The notes under the pieces are model-generated. The model saw only the letters and a program-made list of their open reading frames with translations, had not been told where the DNA came from and searched no databases. The translations under genes and the position numbers were made by a program. Positions 41,371 to 64,000 of a stretch of 64,000 nucleotides of DNA are shown one piece after another. How positions within the stretch are numbered: position 1 is the stretch's first letter; each line of letters starts with the position of its first letter. The DNA is from Fidelibacterota bacterium (GTDB lineage: Bacteria; Pseudomonadota; Alphaproteobacteria; Rhodospirillales; Rhodospirillaceae): assembly GCA_947472795.1 (NCBI GenBank), contig CANJBL010000011.1, positions 1-64,000 of the forward strand, given 5' to 3'.

Positions 41371-42159
41371 ATGTCGATGCCAACAAAACTCTATAAGTAC
41401 CGATCACTGGCCGATGATATGCAATGGCAATATGCGCGAAACATCATTGTGGACAACGAATTTTATTTTTGCCGACCGACTGAGTTCAATGATCCGTTTG
41501 AATGTCGTCCTATGTTCCGAGTTGAGGGAACGGTGGATGAAATTGCGTTATATTTCTACAAATTGCTGTCGAGAAATCGCCCCGAACTTGATGAACAATC
41601 GCGCCGCTCCATGGCCGCAACGAAGGCGTCTCAAATGGCGGCAGACCCACCAGGACAACTCCAAGCCTTCATTGAGCGATTTCACGAAACGCAGATAAAT
41701 AACTATGGCGTATTGTCGCTATCTGCCGATCCCGAAAATATATTGATGTGGGCACACTACGCCAACAATCATCGGGGTATATGTCTTGAGTTCTCGACTG
41801 ACAAGGCTCTCGACAATCTATGCTATGCCGAGCCCGTGACGTATCAGGACGAATTTCCGACAATCAATGTGCTAACAGCGGGTGATGATCCACCGCAGAT
41901 GATGAGGACAATGCTCATCACTAAATCAAAACTTTGGAAATACGAACAGGAGTGGCGGCTAGTTGATTTAGATGGACACGGACCAAAGCAGTTTAATCCA
42001 GGCACTTTGACCGGCATCATTGTAGGTGCGAAGTGCAGCGAGGAGTCGCTAGGGAGGCTGGTCACAATGGCAAATGGGCGATCTCCAAAGCCCGCGTTCT
42101 ATAGCGCGGCGCTGTCCAACAATGCGTTCAAAGTTGTGATTTCAAAAAATCCCGACTAA
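41371..42159 (+). CDS. DUF2971 domain-containing protein
   Basis: A 262-residue DUF2971 protein: LYKYRSL near the start, FNDPFECRP, and LMWAHYANNHRGICLEFS, all standard. Function unknown; DUF2971 genes are common in defence and mobile regions. It overlaps the small minus-strand gene at its 3' end by 4 bp. It begins 12 bp after the SNase gene. Confidence 0.88.
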   Translation: MSMPTKLYKYRSLADDMQWQYARNIIVDNEFYFCRPTEFNDPFECRPMFRVEGTVDEIALYFYKLLSRNRPELDEQSRRSMAATKASQMAADPPGQLQAFIERFHETQINNYGVLSLSADPENILMWAHYANNHRGICLEFSTDKALDNLCYAEPVTYQDEFPTINVLTAGDDPPQMMRTMLITKSKLWKYEQEWRLVDLDGHGPKQFNPGTLTGIIVGAKCSEESLGRLVTMANGRSPKPAFYSAALSNNAFKVVISKNPD

Positions 42160-42706: not shown

Positions 42707-44614
42707 ATGGCCGCGCTGATCGCTTACTTGGGAAGCCTCGTCGGCTATCTGGAACCAGTTTTCCGATTCCTAGTCCAACCTGGGATCGCAATTGGGGCGT
42801 CCGCGCTAATCATATTCGCCGCCCTGTTGCTTGGCATTTGGTTCAACCTCGTCACCGTATTCCCTGTACTCCGCCAAATTCGGCGTCTGCGGATTCACCT
42901 AAAACAATTCAAGGATAGCTCGGACTTCGCCGCAAATTTTAGCGCGTTCGACGCGGAAATTTCTCACGTACACATTCTGCGTCAGGAATGGCAGGAATTT
43001 CGATCGACCCTGTTGATGCCAGATGGCTCGGGCCCTGCTGTCATCAGAAATACCTGCCGACCAGCGGACTACCTAAATTTGTCGGGTTCTGCGGTAATCA
43101 GGTTGGGCCTGCCCCTCTATCAAGCAATCCCCAACTACTTTGTTGGCGTCGGTCTCCTATTCACGTTCATAGGCCTGATTGCAGGACTTTATTTTGCGAG
43201 TAGCGGCGTCACCAACCCGGACATTGTGATCGCTCAAAAGGCGTTTAGCGATCTGCTCAATGCCGCGACGATCAAGTTTATGACTTCGATCGCGGGTCTA
43301 GCTTCCTCCATTCTACTTTCAATAAATCTGAAATCCCAAACCGTGCGCCTTCAGCGCCGTATTGATGACCTTTGTACCGATCTTGGCTTTTTGTTGGAGT
43401 TCGAGTCCTCTGAGCGGATTTCACTCCGACAATTGCACATCCTTGAGAAGCAGCGTGAACAGCTAGAGCGATTCAATACGGATTTTGCCATTGAAGTGGC
43501 AAAGGCGCTTGAAACGCGCCTCACCGCATCATTGGGCACAGCAATTGGACAGGCCGTAAGTCCAATGGTGTCCTCAATCGACAAGATGGCGGAAACTCTG
43601 TCTCAACAAACACAACAGGGGGTCAGCGACCTGGTCCAAAAGTTCACCGAGAACCTTCATGGTTCCGCGGGGCGAGAAATGGAGTCAGTAGTCACAGCGT
43701 TATCAGGCCTTCAAAGTACGCTAGAGGGAACCATTGGTCGCCTCAGTCAGTCTGGTGGAGATTTCGGCTCAAAGATTGATGCGGTTGCGGACCGAATGGA
43801 TGCCCTTATGGCAGGTGCTGCTGAAAAACTCTCAGCCAGCACTAATAATTCGGCACAAAAGCTCGAAGATATTTTGGGCGATATTGCAATTCAGCTTCGT
43901 GAGCAGATGGGCAGCGTCGCTACGAGTCTGAAAGCAATGACGGAACAATCTGCGGAGGTGCTTACCAATAGCATTGGGGGTGCCGCCAATGCTCTCTCAG
44001 CATCCGTTGGTTCAGCGGGCACTCAACTCACTGAACACTTTGCTTCAATGTCCCACGACTTAAATGAAAAGCTGGCTCCCCTCGCGGCCTCGTTGGGTAG
44101 CGTAGAGGCGTCATTAAGGGCCCTCGATAATAGGCTTGGTTCGCAATTCACCGAAATAGATCGGTTGCTGGGCCGGACTAGAGAGTTACTCGGTACATTT
44201 GATGGAGCGGCAGAACGCCTACGTGATGCTGGCGTACCAATCACGGCTACAGCCGACAAGTTTACGCTCGCAGCAGGGCGGATAGATGCTACGTCCCAGC
44301 AAATGGGTCGTGCATTTGACCAAATAGAGAAGCTAGGCACGGCGCTTACGGAAACAGGCGATCGCTTCCGCGATAGCAGCAAACTCTACCAATTGGGAAC
44401 AGCAGAGCTTGATGAGAAGCTAGGTCGCATATTTGCCGCCATGCGTGACGCAACGGATCAGTATCACCGTAGCGTTACCGATTTTGTCACGAAGTTAGAT
44501 AGCCAGTTTGCAAGTGCTGCAAATTTATTGAGGGGTGGGATTGAGGAGTTAGGCGGGGTTGTTGGAGATTTGCGCGACGCTGCCGAAGCAATGCAACCTC
44601 CCCCGAAGGAATAA
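42707..44614 (+). CDS. zorA: Zorya antiphage protein ZorA (MotA-like)
   Basis: A 635-residue membrane protein and the motor-stator half of Zorya. Helices lie at about 23-50, 145-168 and 188-210; the last two belong to the MotA/TolQ/ExbB domain (PNYFVGVGLLFTFIGLIAGL and FMTSIAGLASSILLS). A long cytoplasmic tail (about 230-635) is rich in alpha-helix and coiled-coil patterns. ZorA and ZorB are thought to form a proton-driven motor that signals phage entry. The tail is somewhat shorter than in the E. coli protein. It is followed by zorB after 3 bp. Confidence 0.93.
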   Translation: MAALIAYLGSLVGYLEPVFRFLVQPGIAIGASALIIFAALLLGIWFNLVTVFPVLRQIRRLRIHLKQFKDSSDFAANFSAFDAEISHVHILRQEWQEFRSTLLMPDGSGPAVIRNTCRPADYLNLSGSAVIRLGLPLYQAIPNYFVGVGLLFTFIGLIAGLYFASSGVTNPDIVIAQKAFSDLLNAATIKFMTSIAGLASSILLSINLKSQTVRLQRRIDDLCTDLGFLLEFESSERISLRQLHILEKQREQLERFNTDFAIEVAKALETRLTASLGTAIGQAVSPMVSSIDKMAETLSQQTQQGVSDLVQKFTENLHGSAGREMESVVTALSGLQSTLEGTIGRLSQSGGDFGSKIDAVADRMDALMAGAAEKLSASTNNSAQKLEDILGDIAIQLREQMGSVATSLKAMTEQSAEVLTNSIGGAANALSASVGSAGTQLTEHFASMSHDLNEKLAPLAASLGSVEASLRALDNRLGSQFTEIDRLLGRTRELLGTFDGAAERLRDAGVPITATADKFTLAAGRIDATSQQMGRAFDQIEKLGTALTETGDRFRDSSKLYQLGTAELDEKLGRIFAAMRDATDQYHRSVTDFVTKLDSQFASAANLLRGGIEELGGVVGDLRDAAEAMQPPPKE

Positions 44615-44617
44615 TAA

Positions 44618-45415
44618 ATGTCGCCCAGAAATGAAGCGCATCTAGTTGAGGAGGAAAGTTACTTCGTTTCGATGACCGATCTGATGGTCGGCGTATTATT
44701 TCTGTTCATCATTATGTTGATGGCGGTCGCACTAAATTTGAAGCACCAGCAGCGCACGTACGAGGAGACTAACAGTAAACTCACGCAAGCAGATCAATCT
44801 CGGCGCGAAATGCTCAGGGACATTAAGAAGTCACTCGACGCAGAAGGTGTTGAGGTCAGCATTGATGAGGACACCGGCGTATTACGCCTCCCTGAATCCC
44901 TCCTTTTCGACCGTGGGAGGTTCGAGCTTCAGGCAGCGGGTCAGGTTGCCCTAGGTCATCTTTCCCGCGTCCTTGACAAAATCTTGCCATGCTATGCGCT
45001 GGTGCCTGGAGCAATCACGGATGACTGCAAGACCAAAGGAGGTCGCCTCGAAGCCGTATTCATCGAAGGTCATACCGACGACGTTCGCATGATGCGTAGC
45101 GTGGCTCTCGGTGTTTCCGATAACTGGGATCTGTCAACGGCAAGAGCCATCGAGACATTCCAGCAGCTAACAAAAAGTGCCCCGCGCTTGGCCGATATGC
45201 AAAATGACAGGAAGCTCAAGTTATTGGGTGTGAGTGGCTATGCTGATAACCGGCCAGCCACAAATGACCGACCGACATCACCCGATCAACTTGAGGAGTG
45301 GCGCACAAGGAATCGACGAATTGACTTGCGCTTTCTCATGGCGACTCCTGACGCTGAACAACTTCAGAAATTAAAGGATGCTGTTCAGCGAGGAGTCGAA
45401 AATGAATCTAAATGA
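44618..45415 (+). CDS. zorB: Zorya antiphage protein ZorB (MotB-like)
   Basis: A 265-residue protein with one N-terminal helix (SMTDLMVGVLFLFIIMLMAV) carrying Asp21, the expected proton-carrying residue, followed by a periplasmic OmpA/MotB peptidoglycan-binding domain (IEGHTDDVRM near 149 and SGYADNRPATN, then TRNRRIDLRF). With ZorA it builds the motor. Its end overlaps zorC by 14 bp, showing tight coupling. Confidence 0.94.
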   Translation: MSPRNEAHLVEEESYFVSMTDLMVGVLFLFIIMLMAVALNLKHQQRTYEETNSKLTQADQSRREMLRDIKKSLDAEGVEVSIDEDTGVLRLPESLLFDRGRFELQAAGQVALGHLSRVLDKILPCYALVPGAITDDCKTKGGRLEAVFIEGHTDDVRMMRSVALGVSDNWDLSTARAIETFQQLTKSAPRLADMQNDRKLKLLGVSGYADNRPATNDRPTSPDQLEEWRTRNRRIDLRFLMATPDAEQLQKLKDAVQRGVENESK

Positions 45416-46769
45416 CTTTTTGGCGGATAGCCCCCCACGTTTCCGACCACCTAAGGCTGCGTCACCGCCAAAAATGGAGGCTGCACTACGCGAGCTTGAG
45501 GTCACCTTAAGCAAGGTGAGTGAACAGCCTCCCCCAGAGGGAGCCGCCACCTTCTTAATGCGTTTGAGAACAGTCGCAGCCTCAGGCGAGTGGGCCTCTC
45601 TTGGCAATCGAGATTGGCGATACGGAGTCCAGCTACTGTGGGATCCAGCTGATCCAGTCGGCGAGGATTCAACTATTGTCGAGCGTATCCTCGGATGGGT
45701 CAAAGAACGGTCCAGTCGTTCGTCCTACAGGCTTCTGATTTCCGCATATTTGCAAGGCTTCAAATCTGATCGCGCGGGCATACGGAAAGCAGCCCAGGTA
45801 CTACGAAGTGGCCTGGAGAAATTACCTGTGCCTTGGGGCGATAGGCATAAGCAATTCCGCCTATTCGAGCCCGATGAAGCTCCCAAGTTCATTGCTGCTG
45901 CGGTTCTTTCTCGGACGGGGTCGGTCAGGGCTTCACTCGCTGATATGGGACTTTCCGGCGTTCGGATTTTTGGACTACCCGCAGAGAGCTACCTCGTCGC
46001 CCTTCAACTTCTGAAGGCCGGTTGTGTCGAAACCCATCCCAACCTGAAGCATTTAGATAGCATTTTGGATTGGAGTGAGGAAAACGGACAACTTACGTAC
46101 CCCTCCGCTAAGAACGCCCTATTAGAGGTGATCCTCTCGATCTGGTTAGATCGGCCTCCCCCGCCCGCCCAATATAAAGAAATAATTTCTGCGTTCGTGC
46201 TGCGAGTTTTCAAAGACCCGCGGATCGAAAAACGCCATTGGAACGGCACGCCCGATTCCGCGCAGAAGGTGATGAAGCGATGGCTCACTCAAGTTGCGTT
46301 GGAGCAATTCATCAAAATCCTTGATGAAACAGCAGTTGAAAAGCAATGGCAGTATCGCAGTGCATTTTGGATGTCCTACTTCAATCAAGGCTACATCCAG
46401 GAAGCGTGGGTGCTTTTTGGACCACAGGCTCTAGGTTTGGCACGGAGCGCATTTGGTAAAGATGTTTCGTACGGAATCCTTCGGGGGGGCCTTGGTGTGC
46501 AGCCCGATCACTCCGTGCTGCTCTTACGCATCCAGAATCTAATTATTGCCGATTGGAGTCACAATGGCACTTGCCGTGTGTGGATTGATGGCAATGAAAA
46601 GGTTCCGAATTTTTACTTACACGCAATGACGCGCCCCCAACTCGTGGATGGTGCGGACTTTAGCCAACCTCACCACTATAGCGTGGGAGGCACGTGGCAA
46701 AGAGGCGTCGAGTCATTCATCCGTAAAAAAACAGGCATTAGGATCGGCTCGGGCGAATATATGCCCTAA
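45402..46769 (+). CDS. zorC: Zorya antiphage protein ZorC (EH-signature domain)
   Basis: A 455-residue soluble protein that corresponds in position and size to ZorC of type I Zorya, whose only recognised feature is the EH_Signature domain. The order zorA-zorB-zorC-zorD and the overlapped start support this more than any single motif. ZorC is reported to be a DNA-binding effector partner. I chose the ATG at 45402 with GAGGAG in front; another ATG at 45378 lies inside zorB. Confidence 0.87.
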   Translation: MNLNDFLADSPPRFRPPKAASPPKMEAALRELEVTLSKVSEQPPPEGAATFLMRLRTVAASGEWASLGNRDWRYGVQLLWDPADPVGEDSTIVERILGWVKERSSRSSYRLLISAYLQGFKSDRAGIRKAAQVLRSGLEKLPVPWGDRHKQFRLFEPDEAPKFIAAAVLSRTGSVRASLADMGLSGVRIFGLPAESYLVALQLLKAGCVETHPNLKHLDSILDWSEENGQLTYPSAKNALLEVILSIWLDRPPPPAQYKEIISAFVLRVFKDPRIEKRHWNGTPDSAQKVMKRWLTQVALEQFIKILDETAVEKQWQYRSAFWMSYFNQGYIQEAWVLFGPQALGLARSAFGKDVSYGILRGGLGVQPDHSVLLLRIQNLIIADWSHNGTCRVWIDGNEKVPNFYLHAMTRPQLVDGADFSQPHHYSVGGTWQRGVESFIRKKTGIRIGSGEYMP

Positions 46770-46782
46770 CGAAAGAATATAA

Positions 46783-49700
46783 ATGTCTACGACGTTGACC
46801 TCTTCAGCCCGACAAGAAGGGATTCAGTTTCATCTTCGTGAAAAACCACGATTTGGAGCAGAAAAACAATTGCCCATTTCATCGTGGAGCGAACGCGCTT
46901 CGGAAGGCTGTCTTGCGGGGGTTGGCATCCTCAATGCCTGGACGGATGATGGTATCGGCAAGATCGACGGGGACTCTGTAATTGTTCCACACTCGCAGAT
47001 CGCTAGCCTTGCTCCCAATCTTGCAAAGGCACTTCGGCTTCCAGATTTGCTGCCACTGCTGCTCGATATTGAACACATCGGCACTTTTGACCAGCCGTCA
47101 TTTCAATTCAATCTCGCCTGGATACAACGCAATCAACAACCTGCTTTTAGCGCAGCTCGTACCGGCGCGTTTCTTAAGTACGGTTTAAAGGAATATAGAG
47201 TTTCAAATCCACTTTTTGCGTTGGTTGAGGCTCTTGAAGCGTTCAACAAATCCTCTTCTTTGACTACTGATGATCGCTTCATGGCGTGGGGCAAGGTCCG
47301 CGAATTTCTGCCAACAGAAACGGAGCAGTCTGTTCGAGTAACCGGCTATCTTAGAAATACTCGCGTGGCTCATGCCTCCCGATTTTCTTTGGATATACGC
47401 GGCGGCGCTAAGGGCTTCGACTTCGACCCTGTACTCTTCGGCCCCGAGGCAACCAAAACTGATGATGATGACCATGGCGTAGGACCGTTGAATGAAGTGC
47501 AGAGTGAAGATCGCTCTGTACTGCCCCCGGAAATGCACCAAAAATTCGTCAAGGGACGGTTTCGGGAGGCGAGCGAGTGCAAGCCGCAATACGCCCTCGG
47601 CGACGGATGGTATGTTGTTTTAGATGAACCAGTCAGGCACGCGCTCTCAATTGTGCGAAAAGCCCAGATGGCGGACGTTGCCACAAGAAGGGAATTCGCT
47701 CGCAGGCCCGGAGCGTTTCTTGCCGCTGCGATGGGTGACAAATACGATGGTGCCCTATTTGTTGAGACCCAGGAGTATTCCGCTCGTGTTCAAGATATTG
47801 GACTTTGGCAGCCAAAAGTCATTCCATGGATAAAAAGAAAAACGGAGCCCTGGCTTCCCGAGACCTTCGGATTAAAGATTGGTGCCTCTTACGTAACGCT
47901 TGCTCCTACAGAAGTTCCTCAGCTTGAGGAAATGGTGATTGCAGCTATAAAAGCTGGGCAAGCGATCGTTTCATTTAAGAACGAACCAGTTCCTGCGACG
48001 CAAGGAACATTGGACGCGCTACGCCAAATATCGGGCGTAATCAAACCCACAAACACTAAAGAGGGTGGCCCAGAGGTTCCTCCCGAAAAAGCTAGCGAGG
48101 ACGAGGCGATTCTTGATGGCTTCTACGTACTAAATAGTTTGAGCAATCTGGACGAAACCAGATTTCGTGTGGAATTGAACCCACGTACGCCTCTGTCAAA
48201 GGGAGTTCCCAGTAGCCTGAAGTCAACACTAAAGGCTCATCAATTAGACGGCCTAAAGTGGCTGCAAGACTCTTGGATCGCCGGTGAGTCAGGCGTTTTA
48301 CTCGCGGACGATATGGGTCTTGGCAAAACTGTTCAGGCGCTGGCTTTTCTTGCCTGGCTTCGATTGGCAATGGCGAAAGGCCAGATAAAAAGTCGGCCCA
48401 TACTAATTGTTGCCCCTACGGGCCTGCTTGATAACTGGCAACAGGAACACGCAAGACACCTCATAGCCCCCGGACTTGGTAAAGTCCTTCGTGCGTACGG
48501 AGCCGGTCTTAAAGAAATTAGACAGGAGGAGAAGGTCAGAGGTAACGACACTACTCTTGGCGAGCCGATTCTCGACAAGCAAGAAATGATGAACGCGACC
48601 TGGGTGCTGACCACCTACGAGACTCTCAGGGATTATCAACTGAGTTTCGGCGCTATTCCTTTTGCGATTGCCGTTTTAGATGAAATGCAAAAGGTAAAAA
48701 CGCCAGGAACTATGATGACCGACGCTGTGGCAAATCTAAACGCCGATTTCTTCGTCGGTCTTACAGGTACTCCAATTGAGAATCGTTTGGCTGACCTTTG
48801 GTGTCTGTTCGAGACATTACAACCCGGCTTACTCGGCAACGTCAAAGACTTCAGCGCCACCTATGAAAAAGACGAAGATCCCACAAAACTGCGAGAGCTA
48901 AAGCGGCAGCTTGAAAAAGGCAAGAGTGGCCGGGGCGTAATGCTTCGTCGTATGAAATCTGATCTGGCCGAAGGGCTTCCGGTTAGAAAGCCTGACTTCG
49001 TTTATCCCACGCAAATGTCGCCAGAACAGGCGAGTGCATATGACGCCGCAATAAGTGAGGCAAAGGGATCAACGGATCAGGGAACAATGTTGAGAGCACT
49101 CCATCGCCTCAGGAGTATCTCGCTGCATCCAATTCATCCCGAGACAGCAGCTGACAATGAATTTATTCGCATGTCGGCAAGGCTGAACAAGGCGATTGAA
49201 ATTCTGGATATGATTGCCAAGAAAGAGGAAAAGGCTCTCATATTTCTAGAGTCTCTCGATTTCCAGGCAACTCTGGCGGAGTTAATAAAGCGCCGATATA
49301 GATTGCCACGCTCGCCGTTTATTATTAGCGGCGAAATTTCCGGCCCTAAACGGCAAGCAGCAGTAAATGCCTTCCAGGATGAAACTGCCCGCCCCGGATT
49401 CGACGTGATGATTCTCTCGCCAAGAGCAGGTGGTGTGGGGCTAACGCTCACAGCTGCGAACCACGTTATTCATCTTTCAAGATGGTGGAACCCCGCGGTT
49501 GAAGATCAATGCACAGATAGAGTTTATCGTATTGGGCAGAAGAAGGACGTTCACGTCTACTACCCCCAAGCAATTCATCCCCACTACGGAGCGCAAAGTT
49601 TCGATGAAAGACTTCACAACCTTTTAATTCTGAAACGAAATCTTAGCCGCGAAATGCTGCTTCCGCCGATGCGCCCGGACGATACAAGAAAATTATTTGA

Positions 49701-50115
49701 GGAAACGATTGAGACAGGGGGCGGAAAACAAAAGCCCCCTTTTGATCTGGGCTCCATTGACGAAATGGAGCCTCTACAATTTGAAACCTGGGTGCTGCGC
49801 CGCCTTCGAGACCGAGGCTACCGCGTATCGCGCACGCCACGTTCGCATGACTCAGGGGCCGACGGTATTGCTACGCACGCCCGGACTGGCAAGCGAATCA
49901 TTATCCAGTGTAAGCACACGCAAGGCGACGCGCTTTGTACTGAGGCTGCGGTATTGGACTTACTGCGGGCACGCTCAGCGTATCAGGCTGAGAAGGACAT
50001 ACTTGTGGCGATCACAAATGCAAAGGCGTTCAAACGGAGCGCCTTGGATATGGCCGAGAAATCAGGCGTCATCCTCATTGACCGGAGAGGGCTGGAAACA
50101 TGGCCGACGCTGTAG
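46783..50115 (+). CDS. zorD: Zorya antiphage protein ZorD (SNF2 helicase with Mrr-like nuclease)
   Basis: A 1110-residue effector of type I Zorya. Residues 1-480 are a poorly conserved N-terminal region. The SNF2 core has LADDMGLGKTVQALAF (about 507), the Walker B VLDEMQK (about 631), SPRAGGVGLTLTAANHVIHL (about 876) and DRVYRIGQ. The C-terminus is an Mrr-type nuclease: HDSGADGI (about 1026) and IIIQCKH (about 1042) carry the D and QxK catalytic residues. It lies 13 bp after zorC. Presence of ZorC and ZorD, with no ZorE, makes this type I. Confidence 0.94.
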   Translation: MSTTLTSSARQEGIQFHLREKPRFGAEKQLPISSWSERASEGCLAGVGILNAWTDDGIGKIDGDSVIVPHSQIASLAPNLAKALRLPDLLPLLLDIEHIGTFDQPSFQFNLAWIQRNQQPAFSAARTGAFLKYGLKEYRVSNPLFALVEALEAFNKSSSLTTDDRFMAWGKVREFLPTETEQSVRVTGYLRNTRVAHASRFSLDIRGGAKGFDFDPVLFGPEATKTDDDDHGVGPLNEVQSEDRSVLPPEMHQKFVKGRFREASECKPQYALGDGWYVVLDEPVRHALSIVRKAQMADVATRREFARRPGAFLAAAMGDKYDGALFVETQEYSARVQDIGLWQPKVIPWIKRKTEPWLPETFGLKIGASYVTLAPTEVPQLEEMVIAAIKAGQAIVSFKNEPVPATQGTLDALRQISGVIKPTNTKEGGPEVPPEKASEDEAILDGFYVLNSLSNLDETRFRVELNPRTPLSKGVPSSLKSTLKAHQLDGLKWLQDSWIAGESGVLLADDMGLGKTVQALAFLAWLRLAMAKGQIKSRPILIVAPTGLLDNWQQEHARHLIAPGLGKVLRAYGAGLKEIRQEEKVRGNDTTLGEPILDKQEMMNATWVLTTYETLRDYQLSFGAIPFAIAVLDEMQKVKTPGTMMTDAVANLNADFFVGLTGTPIENRLADLWCLFETLQPGLLGNVKDFSATYEKDEDPTKLRELKRQLEKGKSGRGVMLRRMKSDLAEGLPVRKPDFVYPTQMSPEQASAYDAAISEAKGSTDQGTMLRALHRLRSISLHPIHPETAADNEFIRMSARLNKAIEILDMIAKKEEKALIFLESLDFQATLAELIKRRYRLPRSPFIISGEISGPKRQAAVNAFQDETARPGFDVMILSPRAGGVGLTLTAANHVIHLSRWWNPAVEDQCTDRVYRIGQKKDVHVYYPQAIHPHYGAQSFDERLHNLLILKRNLSREMLLPPMRPDDTRKLFEETIETGGGKQKPPFDLGSIDEMEPLQFETWVLRRLRDRGYRVSRTPRSHDSGADGIATHARTGKRIIIQCKHTQGDALCTEAAVLDLLRARSAYQAEKDILVAITNAKAFKRSALDMAEKSGVILIDRRGLETWPTL

Positions 50116-56091: not shown

Positions 56092-56163
56092 AACGTTTCG
56101 TAAGATAAATCAGACGTTGCGCGTGCGTCAAGTCGAATGATACGTTTCGTTCAGTTTATCTTA
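56092..56163. promoter_or_regulatory. Divergent control region with paired operator-like repeats
   Basis: ACGTTTCGT occurs twice as a direct repeat (56093-56101 and 56142-56150), each next to one arm of an inverted repeat, TAAGATAAA (56101-56109) and TTTATCTTA (56155-56163). The four elements lie between the DUF3892 gene and the XRE regulator. The XRE protein is the obvious ligand. Confidence 0.6.
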
Positions 56164-56175
56164 TGAGGGCTATTA

Positions 56176-56502
56176 ATGACGTTTTCTCAAAGACTTAAGG
56201 AGCTTCGCCTGAAGGCCAATCAATCGCTTCAGGAAGTGGCGGACGCGGTGTCAGCGTCAAAAGCTCACGTCTGGGAGTTAGAACGAGGCACCAGCAAAAA
56301 TCCGTCAATCGACCTTCTTCAGCGTCTAGCGACCCATTTCAAGGTCACCGTCAGTTACCTCATAGATGCCGAATCTCTCGGCGACGCCAAGGCGCAGAGC
56401 TTTTTCCGTAAGCATGAAGCTAATTTGACGAAGATGACCGATGAGGATCTCGCCTACCTGGGATCGCTAGTCGAGCGCCTGAGCAAGACCGATGGGGACT
56501 GA
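56176..56502 (+). CDS. XRE-family helix-turn-helix regulator
   Basis: A 108-residue repressor with a classic XRE HTH (RLKELRLKANQSLQEVADAV ... SKAHVWELERGTSKNPSIDL). It overlaps the ImmA-like peptidase gene by 11 bp; XRE/ImmA pairs regulate mobile elements, with ImmA cutting the repressor on DNA damage. It likely binds the repeats just upstream. Confidence 0.92.
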   Translation: MTFSQRLKELRLKANQSLQEVADAVSASKAHVWELERGTSKNPSIDLLQRLATHFKVTVSYLIDAESLGDAKAQSFFRKHEANLTKMTDEDLAYLGSLVERLSKTDGD

Positions 56503-57409
56503 GATCAAAATTGATCTCATGGCCCTCAGCGATATTGGAGGGCAGCCATTAAGACTCGCAGCTGAAGTCCATCGTCAACTACGTGCCACACACGGTGATG
56601 TTCCGATCCCTCTTCCCCTGGACCAACTCGCTAAAGCGGTTGGAATTAGGCAAATAGAAAAACGCCGCACGGATGCTTACGAAGGCGCGCTCATCACAGA
56701 TTCGGACAAGACAAAGGGCATCGTCATCGTGCGCGATGGTATGCCACTTGGGCGAACACGATTTACCATCGGGCACGAGCTTGGTCATTTTCTGAACCCG
56801 TTTCATCGCGCACACTCTGGAACATTTGAGTGCAAGTCGGCGGGGATGACAGCATGGCGCGATGACGGCACGAAATGGAACGAGCGCCCTATCGAGAATC
56901 GTGTCGAAATCGAGGCCAATGAATTTTCGCTTAGCCTACTTGTCCCAATGCCTGAATTTAAGAGGGCCAGAAAAACATTGGCCGGGTGTGACATAGAACA
57001 CATCGTCAAATTGGCGAATGAATACGAAGTATCCAAGGAGGTGATGGCTGGCCTCTACGTGAATAACGCACCTGAGAAAATCGGCATCATCACGTCGAAA
57101 GATGGCTGTGCGATGCGATTTATCCTCCCACGCGAATTTCCTTATCTGGGAATGAGAAAGGGGATGCCGCTACCAGCTTTATCCTTCGCCCGCGATTTTT
57201 TGACGAAAGCCACGCCTGGCGCTGCATCGGAGCTTACCGAAGTGCGGACTGATACGTGGTTAGATCGCCGGGGCAGCGTAACTACACTCTACGAGCAAAC
57301 GCTCGCACAACAGGACGGCTGGGCTCTCACTATGCTCGTGGTTGATGAAGCCGCTGAAGATTTGGGGGAAGACGATGATGATTCCGAGTGGAATCGTCGA
57401 GCGAAGTAA
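56492..57409 (+). CDS. ImmA/IrrE family metallo-endopeptidase
   Basis: A 305-residue protein with an HExxH zinc site FTIGHELGHFLNPFH (about 93) and the second part ENRVEIEANEFSLSLLVP that completes the ImmA/IrrE fold. The C-terminal half (about 170-305) is variable and acidic at the end. It is translated with the XRE repressor through an 11-bp overlap. A role as antirepressor or defence switch is likely. Confidence 0.92.
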   Translation: MGTEIKIDLMALSDIGGQPLRLAAEVHRQLRATHGDVPIPLPLDQLAKAVGIRQIEKRRTDAYEGALITDSDKTKGIVIVRDGMPLGRTRFTIGHELGHFLNPFHRAHSGTFECKSAGMTAWRDDGTKWNERPIENRVEIEANEFSLSLLVPMPEFKRARKTLAGCDIEHIVKLANEYEVSKEVMAGLYVNNAPEKIGIITSKDGCAMRFILPREFPYLGMRKGMPLPALSFARDFLTKATPGAASELTEVRTDTWLDRRGSVTTLYEQTLAQQDGWALTMLVVDEAAEDLGEDDDDSEWNRRAK

Positions 57410-57557: not shown

Positions 57558-58112
57558 ATGCCAGATATTTTTCTGGACCCGGCGGCTGACCAGTCGGTCG
57601 AGTCAGTTATTCTGGGCCCATACCGCCCGTGGACGCATCACAAAAATATGGGTGGTAATGGATTAGACTATCCAAGGCATAGCGGTCGGATATTGGACCT
57701 CAAGGAAAGTAAAGCTGGTGCCGTGAACTATTTCGTTCAGCAAATTGACCCGATAATTTGCCCCGGAATAGTTCTCTGTTCTGTACCTTCGCACGATCCT
57801 GAAAAATTAGATTCTGGAATCAAGCGCCTCGCAGAAGCACTTTCCGCACTACAGGGCCGCGTCCACGTTGCCGACGGACTCGTAAGGACGGTTAAAGTGC
57901 CAAAGCTCGCACATGGTGGCGACCGATCTATCGAGGTTCATCTAAATAGTATTCGCGTAAATACTCCCGATCTCGTGAGGAAACGAAACGTGCTTCTTTT
58001 AGATGATGTGACCACTACAGGTAATTCCTTGATGGCGTGCCGACAGTTGCTACTTAAGTCTGGTGCTGCGCGAGTGGGGATGCTTTCGCTCGGAAGGACA
58101 AACTACCAATGA
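57558..58112 (+). CDS. Phosphoribosyltransferase-fold protein
   Basis: A 184-residue protein with a type I PRTase PRPP loop (NVLLLDDVTTTGNSL, near residues 145-159) but no recognisable zinc finger or ComF region. Its substrate is unknown. A GGGGA site precedes the ATG at 57558. It overlaps the DprA-like gene by 4 bp (ATGA) and heads a three-gene unit of PRTase, DprA-like and HAD. Synthesis or recycling of a nucleotide is the likely reaction. Confidence 0.8.
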   Translation: MPDIFLDPAADQSVESVILGPYRPWTHHKNMGGNGLDYPRHSGRILDLKESKAGAVNYFVQQIDPIICPGIVLCSVPSHDPEKLDSGIKRLAEALSALQGRVHVADGLVRTVKVPKLAHGGDRSIEVHLNSIRVNTPDLVRKRNVLLLDDVTTTGNSLMACRQLLLKSGAARVGMLSLGRTNYQ

Positions 58113-59086
58113 AGCTCTCCGCACGAACATATTTGGCTCTGCTCAGTCTGCGCGGCGTTGGAAGAAAAACGGCTTCAAAAATCGCAGATACCTTTTCAAA
58201 CGATCCAACCACGCTCGAGGAATTTTATAACGCCCTACTCGCCGCTATATCCAGTGGATTGCGCGTTCCGACGATTGAGCTAGGGGATGTTAGAAACGCT
58301 CTTTCTCGGTCTGAAGAACAAATTGACGCCGCCCAGCAGAATAAGGTTTCTGTTTTTGGAAGGGACGATGGCGACTTTCCGTCGAGATTGAAGAATATCC
58401 CCGATCCACCGCTCGCCATTTTTGTGAAAGGCAATTACCACGCCTTAAATGAAAAGCTGTCGGTTGCAATAATCGGAACGAGGGAGCCATCGGAATATGG
58501 CGCGAAGTCAGCCCGCCGAATTGGGAAGCGATTGGCTGATGAAGGAGTAGTGGTAGTAAGTGGACTAGCTTTGGGATGCGATGCCGAAGGGCATTGGGGC
58601 TGCGTAGAGTCGCACGGTCGCGGTGTGGCTGTCCTGGCACATGGGCTTGATAAAATTTACCCCGCGTCCAACCAAGACCTTGCAGATGCCCTTCTTGCGG
58701 AAGGCGGTTGCCTAATAAGCGAGTACCCTATTGGTACGCGACCTCAAAAAAATAGCTTTGTAGATCGGGACCGTCTGCAAAGTGGACTGAGTGAAGCTGT
58801 AATTGTCATAGAGACCGGAGTGAAGGGGGGATCAATGCATACTGCCAGATTCGCGCAGGAACAGCATAGGTGGCTGTTTTGCATCACGCACCCACCCGAA
58901 CTACATACGTCGGAGAAGGCGGGCGGAAATATTGCGCTCCTCGCAGAGCGTAAAGCAGAGCCTTTGTCGTCTTCTGATGACGTACAAAATCTTCTTGTGA
59001 AACTTCGGACGCAAGTAAAGGCGGCTTATACACCCAAAGCAATCAAGACTGAGCCAGGTCCAGCGCAACACCAATTCGAGTTCTAA
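58109..59086 (+). CDS. DprA/Smf-like (SLOG superfamily) protein
   Basis: A 325-residue protein with an HhH N-terminus (LSLRGVGRKTASKIADTF) and the DprA Rossmann-like core: VAIIGTREPSEYGAKSARRI, VVVSGLALGCDAEGHWG, VAVLAHGLDKIYP and AVIVIETGVKGGSMHTAR. The DNA-binding RN-I signature of true DprA is altered (RDRLQSGLS). The normal C-terminal winged helix is missing. Translation is coupled on both sides, to a PRTase and a HAD enzyme, unlike competence dprA. Confidence 0.85.
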   Translation: MKLSARTYLALLSLRGVGRKTASKIADTFSNDPTTLEEFYNALLAAISSGLRVPTIELGDVRNALSRSEEQIDAAQQNKVSVFGRDDGDFPSRLKNIPDPPLAIFVKGNYHALNEKLSVAIIGTREPSEYGAKSARRIGKRLADEGVVVVSGLALGCDAEGHWGCVESHGRGVAVLAHGLDKIYPASNQDLADALLAEGGCLISEYPIGTRPQKNSFVDRDRLQSGLSEAVIVIETGVKGGSMHTARFAQEQHRWLFCITHPPELHTSEKAGGNIALLAERKAEPLSSSDDVQNLLVKLRTQVKAAYTPKAIKTEPGPAQHQFEF

Positions 59087-59592
59087 TGGTCATATTCGAC
59101 CTCGATCAAACACTCATTGATTCGCGCACCTGCCAGCCATTACGGAAAGCGCGTAAGTGGCCTGAGGTCTACAAGGTAATATCTGGCCTCGCACCCTATG
59201 GCGGCATAGATGACGTTATGCAGTGGTTGATGGAGCGCAACGTGCCCATTGGGGTAGTTACTTCTAGCCCCCGACCGTACTGCACACGTGTATTGGCTCA
59301 TATTGGTTGGAAGGTTCCTGTTGTTGTTGCCTACCACGACACCGCCAGACACAAGCCACACCCCGACCCAATTCTTCGCGCAATTGAGCTTGGAGCCGTT
59401 GCTCCAGCCGATGCGGTGCATGTGGGGGATTCAGCAGATGATACGATCTCGGCGCGGGCCGCCGGAGTGTTAGCCATCGGAGCGGCGTGGGGTTCGGAAG
59501 AATTGAAGGCGCTCAATGCCTCCAGGCCGGATGTGATTTGCCAAACTCCGCTTGAATTAAAAGCCTTCTTGAAGAGGCACTTCTCTCAATAG
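59086..59592 (+). CDS. HAD-superfamily phosphatase
   Basis: A 168-residue HAD hydrolase with motif I DLDQTLID, motif II VVTSS, motif III Lys in RHKPHPDP and motif IV HVGDSADD. The cap is small. Together with the PRTase and DprA-like proteins it could dephosphorylate a nucleotide or phosphosugar. It overlaps the previous gene by 1 bp (TAATG). Confidence 0.85.
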   Translation: MVIFDLDQTLIDSRTCQPLRKARKWPEVYKVISGLAPYGGIDDVMQWLMERNVPIGVVTSSPRPYCTRVLAHIGWKVPVVVAYHDTARHKPHPDPILRAIELGAVAPADAVHVGDSADDTISARAAGVLAIGAAWGSEELKALNASRPDVICQTPLELKAFLKRHFSQ

Positions 59593-59619
59593 CAATCGCA
59601 AGAGAAATGAGCAGAGTTG

Positions 59620-60357
59620 ATGAAATTTGATCTGCCACTCTTACAAGCCATCAGCGATTGGCAACAAGGTGGCAATGCTCGCGCAAAATATCAGCGAGGA
59701 CTCAGGCTAAAGACACTCTGCAGGAACGTTGATAGCCGGTTTCGCATATGCAAACTGTTAGCTTTTCGGCGGCTTTCGCTAAATAGATTTCCGTTGTGGA
59801 ATCTCCTCGCCGACGGCTCTCTAAAAGAAACGATCTCCGCTTGGACTTGCTCCATTGACATGGCTAAGAACTTTAAGGGCGGTGTTCCTCCACTCAATTG
59901 GCAGGGAATTATTCTGGAGAGGCTTCCCAGTGATGATAGCGTAATCATCAATCTATCCGTTCTATTCCACGACGAGTCTTTTCAGTCGGCAATCGAAAAA
60001 TACAAGACCCAGATCGCAGAATTTAATCTCGGAATGGGTAAATATATGAACTCCCAGAGCGAGGTTGTGCTTGAAATTTCTAAGGTAGGCCGAGAGGACA
60101 TTCATGGCCTTGGCGGCTATACAAGCGATCCCAATGAAATTGGAAAATGGATTTTCGGGCGGGAGCCATCCGACAAAGAGATAGCGCGGATGACGAGCCT
60201 TTTACAAAAGGGAGGGAGGAATTTTGGGCCATGGTGGCTTGATGGAGAAGCGAAAGACAGAGTGTTAAAGAAAGTGATTTCCCACGTCCCAAGACTTAAA
60301 GAAAAGAAGAAGCGCCAAGATGCAAACCGTAAAAGGGCCCCTGCTTCTCGACTTTAA
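59620..60357 (+). CDS. Hypothetical protein downstream of the PRTase/DprA/HAD unit
   Basis: A 245-residue protein with no family I recognise. The N-terminus is basic (ARAKYQRGLRLKTLCRNVDS), the middle has hydrophobic strand-like stretches (GIILERLPSDDSVIINLSV), and the C-terminus ends in lysine/arginine-rich KEKKKRQDANRKRAP. It begins 27 bp after the HAD gene and probably ends the same transcript. Its stop codon abuts that of the convergent recombinase. Nucleic-acid binding is possible. Confidence 0.6.
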   Translation: MKFDLPLLQAISDWQQGGNARAKYQRGLRLKTLCRNVDSRFRICKLLAFRRLSLNRFPLWNLLADGSLKETISAWTCSIDMAKNFKGGVPPLNWQGIILERLPSDDSVIINLSVLFHDESFQSAIEKYKTQIAEFNLGMGKYMNSQSEVVLEISKVGREDIHGLGGYTSDPNEIGKWIFGREPSDKEIARMTSLLQKGGRNFGPWWLDGEAKDRVLKKVISHVPRLKEKKKRQDANRKRAPASRL

Positions 60358-60972
60358 TCATGTTCTTCCGGTCATTCGGCCTACAGGTAGTTTGCCCGTA
60401 ACTCGCTGCACCGTCGAAACACCAACACCAAGTTCGCGGGCAATCCGTCGAATCCCCGTCCCCTTTCGTCGCGCAGCCCGGATCGCCGCCTCTACTTTCT
60501 CCGACACGCGGGGCCGACCAAACACCTTTCCCTCAGCACGGGCTCTTGCCAAACCAGCTTTGATCCGTTCCCGCATCATTGCACGCTCAAACTCCGCAAA
60601 AATTCCCATGAACTGGAACATCGCTCGACCGGCTGGCGTGGTCGTATCTAGACCTTGCTGGTGGAGATAGAGTCCAGTCGTGGTTGCCCGAAATTCCTCA
60701 AGCAACGATATTAGGTCTTGGAGCGAACGGCCTAACCTGTCTACAGACCAAACAGCAACTAAATCGACTTGGCCCTTGGTCATGCATTTTATCATCGCGT
60801 CTAAGCCCGGGCGCTGATCCCGACCTTTTGCGCCTGACACCCCAGCATCCTCAAAAACGTGAATTACATTCCATCCTTGCCGTTTGGCGACAGTCATTAA
60901 TTCTCGTCGTTGATTCTTCGTTGTTTGCTCCGAGGTCGAGACGCGCAGATACAACGCAACACGCTTGCTCAT
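60358..60972 (-). CDS. Serine recombinase / resolvase
   Basis: A 204-residue small serine recombinase. The catalytic Ser12 is in YLRVSTSEQ; arginines in VWSVDRLGRS and FAEFERAMMRERI are in place; an HTH ends the protein (IRRIARELGVGVSTVQRVTG). This is the Tn3/resolvase-type invertase family. The ATG at 60972 is the family start. It may resolve or invert a nearby element; no crossover site was found. Confidence 0.93.
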   Translation of the reverse strand: MSKRVALYLRVSTSEQTTKNQRRELMTVAKRQGWNVIHVFEDAGVSGAKGRDQRPGLDAMIKCMTKGQVDLVAVWSVDRLGRSLQDLISLLEEFRATTTGLYLHQQGLDTTTPAGRAMFQFMGIFAEFERAMMRERIKAGLARARAEGKVFGRPRVSEKVEAAIRAARRKGTGIRRIARELGVGVSTVQRVTGKLPVGRMTGRT

Positions 60973-61046
60973 AACTAGTCTCCATGGTTTTGGGTTGGTT
61001 GGCTTAGCCGCTAGCGTGATCGGCAGCGGTAATCGCGGCACTCATA

Positions 61047-62350: not shown

Positions 62351-64000
62351 TCAGCATCCGAGTTCCGGCAGGTTGTTGACGATCCTAACGGTCTCCACAC
62401 TAACTCGAACAACTCGCTTAAGTAGATCGACGATATACCGCGGGTTATCTGACCACGCATTAGGGTCATTTCTTATCCCGCTCGGCTTATCAACATATAA
62501 CTGATACTGCTCCATGACCCATTCAATTGCGGACTTACCGTTGACGACATAGCTGTATGCGTCCAGCGGTACGTCACGAATCAGAAGGTGTTCATTATAA
62601 ACAATCACGCTCTTGTCAGTTTTCCCAGACGACTTCCCGAAGGTCATTTTGTTGACCTTGAAATCAGCGTCTTCCATGACGACGCGCTTGTTCTCTTCCT
62701 TAAGCGGCCACGGCTCTACAGTTTCGTAGTTCAGGTGTAGATTACCGAGAGCCCGACCAGATTTACTGAACGCCCAGAAGTCTGCAATGAAGGGAATACG
62801 AGGCAACATCTTCTTCAGGTCAGATGAAAAGCGCCGCTTATATTCGGGCGAATGAAGGATGCCGTAAACGTACCAGAACACGTCTTCCTTCTTTATACTT
62901 GTATCGCTGTATTGCGACTGGAACGCCTCTAAGGCCCAGTCCGTAATCGTATCGTGACGACGATAACCACTTACATCCACTCCCGTCGTATCTGCCCCAA
63001 AGAGTCCTGGCGCATCATCTTGCACATCGACCTTTTCGTACCAATACAATGGGAAGCACTGGCCAGTATCAGTTAGGTGCATGTTCGGAACATGATCCGT
63101 TACTAGGGCGGAGTAACCCTTTCTGTCTGCAACGCCCGTGCTTGAAATAACGATGTTCTTGTGCCGAGGCGTAGGAAAGAGATCGAATATCTTGTTGACC
63201 ATTTCGTTCAAGCGGCGATTGAAATACATCACCTGCTTATTGAAAGGACGATAGGCCGCCTCCACTAGATACGATGAATCATACTCAAGCAGCCTGCCCC
63301 GCCTCGCGCCGTCTTTTAGGGACCGCGTCCAACTAATCCGTCGTGGGTCTGTCTCGATTACGGACTCCAAATCCGGCCTCTGATTCTTATCCTTTCCGTC
63401 GCACAGTTTTGCGTACCGCTTTGCATCAGAATTATAGGCATCAATCAGTCGGCTGACGTTGGCAGTGACGCTCTCACGCGAGAAACCATAGACCCATGGG
63501 TCTCGGTTGGTTACAACGCCAAAGGAATAGACAGAAAAGAGTACGTTTTGTTCGCTGCTGTCTTTTGACCCAATCGCTAAAAACTTCTCAAATACTGGAT
63601 CGCGCTGATTTATCCAGTCACCATCGGCGTTCGGCGTTATCGCCTCCCAAGGAACGGTGTGGATCGACCCAAAGGCCTCTACAATTGACAGCTTCTCTTC
63701 GCGGGAAAGATGGTCACCAATATCGTGATATGCAATTTCGCATGGTCCTTGATGAGCAGCATCGCGGACCATAATGGTAATAGCGACTGGCGATCTCGAC
63801 CCGGACCCGAAAACCTTTCCACCTTCTTGCCGAGACACCTCACCGCTGGTTCTCTGATCTCCACGCAGATCGAAAATATAAAGATGACTAAATTCGTCGG
63901 CGAGACACCTCCGAATACCATCCATATTGTTCGCCTTTATGAATGACCCGTTCGTAACGAAAGCGACTATGCCCTTCTCCTTAATGCGGTCAGTCGCCCA
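62351..64000 (-). CDS. Type ISP-like restriction-modification enzyme, C-terminal part (runs off the right edge)
   Basis: At least 549 residues; the frame is open to the window edge. The visible N-terminal end KGIVAFVTNGSFIKANNMDG is the conserved stretch after the NPPY motif of N6-adenine methyltransferases. The following YIFDLRGDQRTSGE and FWYVYGILHSPEYKRRF are standard in type ISP and Eco57I-class enzymes. The downstream region carries target recognition. The nuclease and SAM motifs are outside the window. An internal ATG at 63925 is not the real start. Confidence 0.88.
   Translation of the reverse strand, partial: WATDRIKEKGIVAFVTNGSFIKANNMDGIRRCLADEFSHLYIFDLRGDQRTSGEVSRQEGGKVFGSGSRSPVAITIMVRDAAHQGPCEIAYHDIGDHLSREEKLSIVEAFGSIHTVPWEAITPNADGDWINQRDPVFEKFLAIGSKDSSEQNVLFSVYSFGVVTNRDPWVYGFSRESVTANVSRLIDAYNSDAKRYAKLCDGKDKNQRPDLESVIETDPRRISWTRSLKDGARRGRLLEYDSSYLVEAAYRPFNKQVMYFNRRLNEMVNKIFDLFPTPRHKNIVISSTGVADRKGYSALVTDHVPNMHLTDTGQCFPLYWYEKVDVQDDAPGLFGADTTGVDVSGYRRHDTITDWALEAFQSQYSDTSIKKEDVFWYVYGILHSPEYKRRFSSDLKKMLPRIPFIADFWAFSKSGRALGNLHLNYETVEPWPLKEENKRVVMEDADFKVNKMTFGKSSGKTDKSVIVYNEHLLIRDVPLDAYSYVVNGKSAIEWVMEQYQLYVDKPSGIRNDPNAWSDNPRYIVDLLKRVVRVSVETVRIVNNLPELGC

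Follow-up and report, generated by a model that had tools for sequence, protein, structure and literature searches.

The DNA analysed here, called the window below, consists of the first 64,000 nucleotides of contig CANJBL010000011.1, from an alphaproteobacterial genome assembly (GCA_947472795.1). Towards its end lie three overlapping genes, for a phosphoribosyltransferase (PRTase), a DprA-like protein and a HAD phosphatase. This trio is a system of the known ShosTA kind. An earlier note on this DNA had made it the lead candidate for an undescribed or barely described system, but ShosTA comes with PADLOC models and solved structures. What is little noticed is that ShosTA has a three-gene form, which recurs across phyla. 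Judged from its sequence, the trio is quite probably a split-toxin member of this toxin-antitoxin and phage-defence family, sitting behind a switch of the CapH/CapP type.

All these genes are on the forward strand. The PRTase gene (57558..58112, 184 residues), a ShosT-type toxin half, comes first and encodes the phosphoribosyl pyrophosphate (PRPP) loop DDVTTTG. It is followed by the gene of the DprA-like SLOG protein (58109..59086, 325 residues), and then by that of the HAD phosphatase, the other toxin half (59086..59592, 168 residues). Read directly, the first junction is an ATGA overlap at 58109-58112, the second a TAATG overlap at 59084-59088. Because the genes overlap, the three are probably co-translated. 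A fourth open reading frame (ORF), Orf4 (59620..60357, 245 residues), starts 27 nucleotides after the HAD stop. Upstream, on the same strand as the trio, are an XRE gene and an ImmA-like gene. The earlier note had all of this right: the four ORFs, the two junctions, the gap and the upstream pair.

On sequence and predicted fold, the DprA-like protein is ShosA, since it matches the PADLOC ShosA profile (1.8e-78) and a solved ShosA is recovered by both routes. The sequence matches the solved chain 9vzo at 1.3e-27. The predicted structure has a pLDDT (predicted local distance difference test) of 93.2, and its best two PDB matches by E-value are DprA 3maj and then ShosA 8zva. An identity as housekeeping or competence dprA was rejected: there is another dprA in the genome, a match of 248 bits with a 373-residue frame on contig C2, and the window protein is without a winged helix. 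In the model, a helix at residues 289-306 comes last before a disordered end, and no winged-helix family shows up in a Pfam search at E up to 0.1. The earlier note had likewise seen no winged helix, and the case that it named as refuting its reading, a sole genomic dprA, does not hold. It had also pointed to an altered DNA-binding signature. This signature is at least partly the ShosA family's own GTREP motif, in which G123, T124, R125 and P127 are invariant across 23 sequences.

The SLOG fold also raises the possibility of nucleotide-signalling defence, with the PRTase making a signal, the SLOG protein sensing it and the HAD destroying it. In Thoeris ThsA, SLOG folds bind nucleotides, and the fold search does list ThsA chains, in places 41-44 (E about 1e-4). 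The top of that list is however taken by DprA and ShosA, Pfam shows no effector domain in the SLOG protein, and a toxin-antitoxin reading of ShosTA is already published, going by the available parts of PMC9122126 and PMC12593503. The earlier note had suggested that a nucleotide signal is made or destroyed, but no pointer to a diffusible one was found; PMC12593503, a review, has ShosT as a toxin disturbing purine and nucleotide pools. Nucleotide signalling is very unlikely.

The PRTase matches PADLOC ShosT (PDLC03962) at 3.7e-20, over profile positions 93-213 of 237. It also matches NCBIfam comF at 6.1e-9, far under that model's cut-off. To 12 aligned relatives it is 29-48% identical. The HAD protein matches Pfam HAD_2 at 8.4e-24 and has all of D5, D7, T9, K90, D115 and D119, which are invariant across six aligned HADs. 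A larger HAD survey takes in the window, both pieces of a HAD split in two at locus L103, and two pairs of fused rows that are the same or almost so. There, D5, D7 and D115 are each kept in 50/51 separate copies and D119 in 49/51, and each of the four in 22/22 fused ones. The exception for D5 and D7 is one of the two L103 pieces.

Where the Pfam match begins, residue 31 lines up with profile position 75, a sign that the HAD is cap-less. HADs without a cap often work on large substrates. PADLOC, at E up to 0.01, has no label for the window HAD or for Orf4, and gives the HAD of the Sinorhizobium meliloti trio only a weak generic 'Hydrolase' (1.2e-4). This makes the third component easily missed.

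By sequence, the PRTase and HAD genes correspond to the two domains that are fused in one ShosT chain in other family members. Fused HAD-PRTase systems are found in the Pseudomonas Pf phage PfAC02a, in Rhizobiales and in some enterobacteria. They have the same three domains as the trio, HAD aspartates included, but the toxin is in one chain and ShosA mostly belongs to another clade. ShosT of PfAC02a, annotated as HAD plus PRTase, matches Pfam HAD_2 at 3.9e-23 and a PRTase family at 1.2e-8.

The P2-prophage type of ShosTA (phage P2_4C9) is like the trio in having a DprA-like ShosA, a PRTase toxin and a HAD-type domain paired with the PRTase. Its ShosT is one 424-residue chain, however, where the window has separate PRTase and HAD genes around shosA. 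The solved chains are 8zva (E. coli APEC O1) and 9vzo for ShosA, and 8zvb-d, 9w2p and 9w2q for ShosT; P2_4C9 ShosA matches a solved chain at 4.9e-221, and P2_4C9 ShosT matches 8zvb at 7.1e-294. HAD matches to the N-terminal half of this ShosT stay under the cut-off (PF00702 2.9e-4, HAD_2 0.0047), and hhalign against the trio HADs gives an E of 0.0021 with a probability of only 13%. Where active HADs have FDxDxT, the start of this ShosT has FSIADV, so this half, if a HAD at all, is apparently inactive. The window HAD keeps its catalytic residues.

The trio is filed as a split variant, and not as standard ShosTA, because PRTase and HAD are not in one polypeptide. The PADLOC ShosT models do not require the fusion, and the HAD is absent at some loci typed as ShosTA. 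The PRTase of phage SopEPhi, 193 residues without a HAD, also matches PADLOC ShosT.

PsyrTA/RqlHI is a further known system with a DprA-like antitoxin and a PRTase toxin, and the window matches PADLOC PsyrA at 3.8e-31. There the PRTase is borne by a RecQ-type helicase, whereas the window has its 184-residue PRTase without one. With no helicase at the locus, PsyrTA identity was rejected.

Going by percent identity, the PRTase is the exchangeable part of the trio. That of the window is 48% identical to the one of Hymenobacter, 17% to that of S. meliloti and 14% to that of Rhizobium leguminosarum. Across the same trios the identities of ShosA (35-42%) and HAD (38-42%) hold steady.

Two observations on relatives of the PRTase stand by themselves. 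One is a tandem of three PRTase-like genes (L043 2045-3938) ahead of shosA and the HAD gene on a plasmid of Segatella copri, a possible case of effector diversification. Two fused ShosT proteins (L041 1393-2829 and L035 6041-7141) have C-termini that match a topoisomerase-type zinc ribbon, at 2.1e-12 and, below the cut-off, 7.3e-6. Pfam does not list this ribbon for the window PRTase.

To see how widespread the trio is, 80 loci were used: the best 80 of 285 ShosA relatives in a genome scan, ranked by how closely they match an alignment of ShosA sequences, five from trios and one from a fused system. Counts from these loci are not random-genome frequencies. (A genome scan with a single ShosA sequence confirmed 0 relatives among 73 stretches.) Domains were called with custom small hidden Markov models, with their own score cut-offs and an adjacency limit of 300 nucleotides. 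L059, with a PRTase in two pieces, and L103 were counted as read.

The split order PRTase-ShosA-HAD, as three genes, is present at 36/80 loci. A fused HAD-PRTase stands beside ShosA at 12 (8 downstream, 4 upstream), ShosA-HAD with a non-adjacent PRTase at 7, PRTase-ShosA without a HAD at 12, and 13 show none of these arrangements ('none'). The controls were 26 search matches taken as housekeeping dprA (L007-L032), with at most about 1.5 kb on each side and L011 cut; a HAD or PRTase neighbour is found at 0/26 of these. Set against the 36 trios, this led to rejection of the HAD as a chance neighbour. The earlier note had read the three genes as one unit, and as such they do recur.

Split loci were found in Pseudomonadota, Bacteroidota, Bacillota, Cyanobacteriota, Chloroflexota, Planctomycetota, Acidobacteriota and Gemmatimonadota, and in archaea. 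Plasmid-borne trios occur in S. meliloti, R. leguminosarum, S. copri and Hymenobacter. Seen this way, ShosTA is no longer just a two-gene system but a family, present in bacteria and archaea, whose toxin has PRTase and HAD as modular halves.

A quick tree of ShosA was also made, with support from the Shimodaira-Hasegawa-like approximate likelihood ratio test (SH-aLRT) only. It excludes all but five controls, together with L038, L045, L144, L147 and L148, which are a copy of the window or fragments. All 42 split rows fall within a 77-row group (SH-aLRT 91), together with 3 fused, 7 ShosA-HAD, 12 PRTase-only and 13 'none' rows. A separate 21-row clade (SH-aLRT 96) holds 17 of the 22 fused rows. 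The labels split and fused require 3 changes on this tree; split versus all others requires 18, with a shuffled mean of 34.2.

Within the phylum the ShosTA-type distribution looks sparse. From a draw of 398 genomes, the only ShosA-type loci among the best 30 listed are that of the window and one in genome G240, which has a PRTase and no HAD. Such sparseness (2 among those 30) speaks against a DNA-repair or recombination operon, in which ShosA would load recombinases, the HAD would clean 3' ends and the PRTase would salvage bases. The relation to DprA would fit this, as would the clamp-like tail described below and the HAD's weak similarity to polynucleotide kinase 3'-phosphatase (0.026 for the window, 3.1e-4 for a fused ShosT). 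But the related RqlH PRTase domain is genotoxic, according to the part of PMC4670107 at hand, and a repair operon is highly improbable.

The predicted switch upstream of the trio is of the CapH/CapP type. The XRE repressor gene (56176..56502, forward strand) matches PADLOC capH at 6.5e-20. The ImmA/IrrE metallopeptidase gene (56492..57409, forward strand) matches capP at 7.9e-42 and Pfam M78 at 8.6e-11, and has HELGH in its translation. A 12-nucleotide inverted repeat before capH, with arms at 56098-56109 and 56155-56166, is a candidate operator. Known CapH/CapP regulators likewise are an XRE and ImmA/IrrE pair upstream of an immune operon. They are triggered by single-stranded DNA, and are named together with CapW/BrxR for BREX, Pycsar, CBASS, DISARM and Bub operons in the available text of PMC13373217, in which ShosTA and DprA have 0 occurrences. 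For other operons, it is published that CapH is cleaved upon activation by single-stranded DNA, with derepression.

About 7 kb upstream is a complete Zorya type I system (ZorA, B, C, D; 42707-50112), with best E-values of 2e-94, 2e-85, 1.9e-92 and 0, preceded by a PDC-S31 candidate (41371-42156). The setting is defence-like, as the earlier note had it. The guanine plus cytosine (GC) fraction of the trio genes is 0.50-0.55 and that of genes of the region 0.47-0.55; two genes taken to be the housekeeping genes clpB and hisS (hisS also by annotated matches) have 0.61. A mobile defence island fits the low GC of the trio and the nearby Zorya. An integrative island is suggested by what is, on our own reading, an integrase-like gene further along (L160 15579-16874).

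That gene and the low GC could also belong to a classical toxin-antitoxin system for plasmid or island addiction, without specific phage sensing, and relatives are found on one conjugative and one mobilizable plasmid. What points to immunity instead is the switch of the CapH/CapP type, along with the Zorya system nearby. In addition, an E. coli DprA-PRTase pair protects against T7 and lambda, according to the accessible part of Rousset et al. 2022 (PMC9122126); the earlier note had named such pairs as defence candidates, and this they are. Pure addiction is unlikely.

The preferred split-toxin ShosTA reading has a mechanism modelled on findings for ShosTA and RqlHI. In the accessible portion of the review (PMC12593503), ShosT is a PRTase plus pyrophosphatase that upsets purine and nucleotide pools, leading to DNA duplications, filamentation and death. 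ShosA is its DNA-binding antitoxin, and the trigger is T7 Gp0.7. The PRTase domain of RqlHI is reported as necessary but not sufficient for genotoxicity in the part of PMC4670107 seen here, in keeping with a toxin that depends on additional components.

At rest, CapH would repress the operon, and ShosA, made between the toxin halves, would keep both inactive on DNA. Single-stranded DNA, arising when a phage infects or replication is damaged, would activate CapP to cleave CapH and would disturb ShosA. Next, the PRTase might use PRPP to act on a base or a nucleotide; the HAD might remove phosphate from the product or from a DNA end. With the nucleotide pool or the DNA spoiled, phage replication would stop and the host would be harmed, which would amount to abortive defence.

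Several observations weigh against this. No inverted repeat was found directly before the PRTase gene, and a promoter and terminator scan gave fewer matches than shuffles, with no convincing promoter there. Few other trios have a CapP-like gene close by. Looking up to 4.5 kb upstream, on the same strand, for ORFs of 120-420 residues with an HExxH motif gave two split trios (L073 and L074) and one ShosA-HAD locus (L077), plus one false match inside the L043 PRTase. The HAD is not always present: PRTase-ShosA without it occurs at 12/80 loci, 4 of these with a contig end close downstream. Finally, as the PRTase is only 14-17% identical to those of two rhizobial trios, PRTase substrates may differ between trios.

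ShosA has a C-terminal tail (residues 307-325, 59027..59083, forward strand) that is predicted to be disordered after residue 307, with a pLDDT below 50 for 308-318 and 322-324. Tails of relatives read QLSLF (L090, L128), QLELF (L104, L105), QMSLF (L101) and QLTLF (L113), with QxSMxF in Alphaproteobacteria, QMSML in rhizobial fused systems and QLSLL in phage P2_4C9. Many archaeal tails have QxTL, once QKTLDRWI, and most are without the aromatic pair. The consensus for binding the sliding clamp is QL[S/D]LF in bacteria and Qxx[ILM]xxF[FY] for PCNA, a terminal position being the most typical, according to the portion of PMC3716654 available. The tail may dock ShosA on the clamp, putting the switch at replication forks.

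Motifs were counted in the last 20 residues of each protein. A relaxed clamp pattern matches 49/80 ShosA tails, with a shuffled mean of 4.0 and maximum of 10; a strict one matches 20/80 (mean 0.1, maximum 2), and exact QL[SD]LF is found in 2/80. Split trios alone give 25/36 relaxed and 4/36 strict. HAD proteins match at 1/51 and 0/51, PRTase proteins at 2/61 and 0/61, and other ORFs at 7/321 and 2/321, these being mechanical ORFs of at least 200 residues on both strands, not all real genes. QxTL is present in 10/16 archaeal or unassigned tails versus 2/64 bacterial ones (p 2.7e-7).

A later control set of dprA tails has 0/33 matches. Of five ShosA-like genes in a later small set that have a PRTase or HAD next to them, three match: L198, L201 (closely like rhizobial tails already seen) and, weakly, L162. 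Near-twins L197 and L200 do not match, nor do any of the three without such neighbours (L191, L192, L194). Of the solved structures, the 8zva chain stops before the motif, at the position equal to residue 335 of the 349 of P2_4C9 ShosA, while 9vzo reaches 349.

These points can be joined into one reading, which is tentative and on balance somewhat more doubtful than not. ShosA-family proteins would be clamp clients, their C-terminal peptide docking on DnaN in bacteria and PCNA in archaea, so that the system watches forks. Displacement of ShosA by phage replication or damage would let the PRTase and an active HAD, as one chain or two genes, alter nucleotides or DNA ends with lethal effect. The split trio is the commonest form among relatives of the window, and the solved ShosT, with its seemingly dead HAD, would be atypical. 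If the clamp part holds, it offers a concrete route for ShosTA to sense phage replication.

Several results stand against a clamp-binding tail. The patterns were written post hoc, after the tails had been read. Control dprA tails match at 4/26 relaxed and 1/26 strict, and 25/80 ShosA tails have no match to either the relaxed pattern or QxTL. At below 50% mutual identity, 17/32 representatives match (9/17 split). The window's own tail ends in a divergent QHQFEF (59066-59083), which fits the relaxed pattern only.

The listings from literature searches showed no link between ShosA and the clamp, and 'clamp' occurs 0 times in the available text of the RqlHI paper (PMC4670107). Two toxin-antitoxin systems are linked to DnaN, SocAB (PMC9690074) and RipAB (PMC12795458), going by the parts of these papers at hand. 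In those it is the toxin that acts on the sliding clamp, whereas in ShosTA the antitoxin or sensor carries the clamp-like motif.

Orf4 had been put forward as a fourth member of the system. This was rejected, as 0/80 ShosA loci carry a relative, and Orf4 is probably unrelated cargo. Its relatives are on three viral contigs (L130, L131, L132), in two A. baumannii records, on a Sinorhizobium plasmid (in two pieces) and in one other genome. By our own reading, L130 adjoins P2-type terminase and portal genes, and L131 an integrase. Phage records gave 0 matches, and two further viral-contig scans no contigs beyond the three already known. Genome searches added 1 further full-length relative (G874), plus partial matches of 17-18 bits.

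The family is small, and its members come mostly from viral contigs. It has R50, S73-x-W75-T76 and Q146-x-E148 as invariants, which we take to resemble the R-S-QxE motif of ADP-ribosyltransferases, a likeness with no profile or structure backing. Nothing significant was found for Orf4 among PDB chains, Pfam and PHROGs, and its structure prediction, at a mean pLDDT of 49.5, was not used. On this motif reading, Orf4 is a possible uncharacterised ADP-ribosyltransferase.

Abutting the Orf4 stop, on the reverse strand, is an ORF (60358-61041) that we read as serine-recombinase-like. A large type IIG restriction-methyltransferase gene starts at 62351 and runs past the window end (L160 2352-7139). 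Elsewhere, a dGTP triphosphohydrolase gene lies shortly upstream of the R. leguminosarum trio (L044 2544-3902), and a Cyanobacterium aponinum plasmid has a trio-like HAD gene immediately downstream of cas1 and cas2 (L048 3965-4486).

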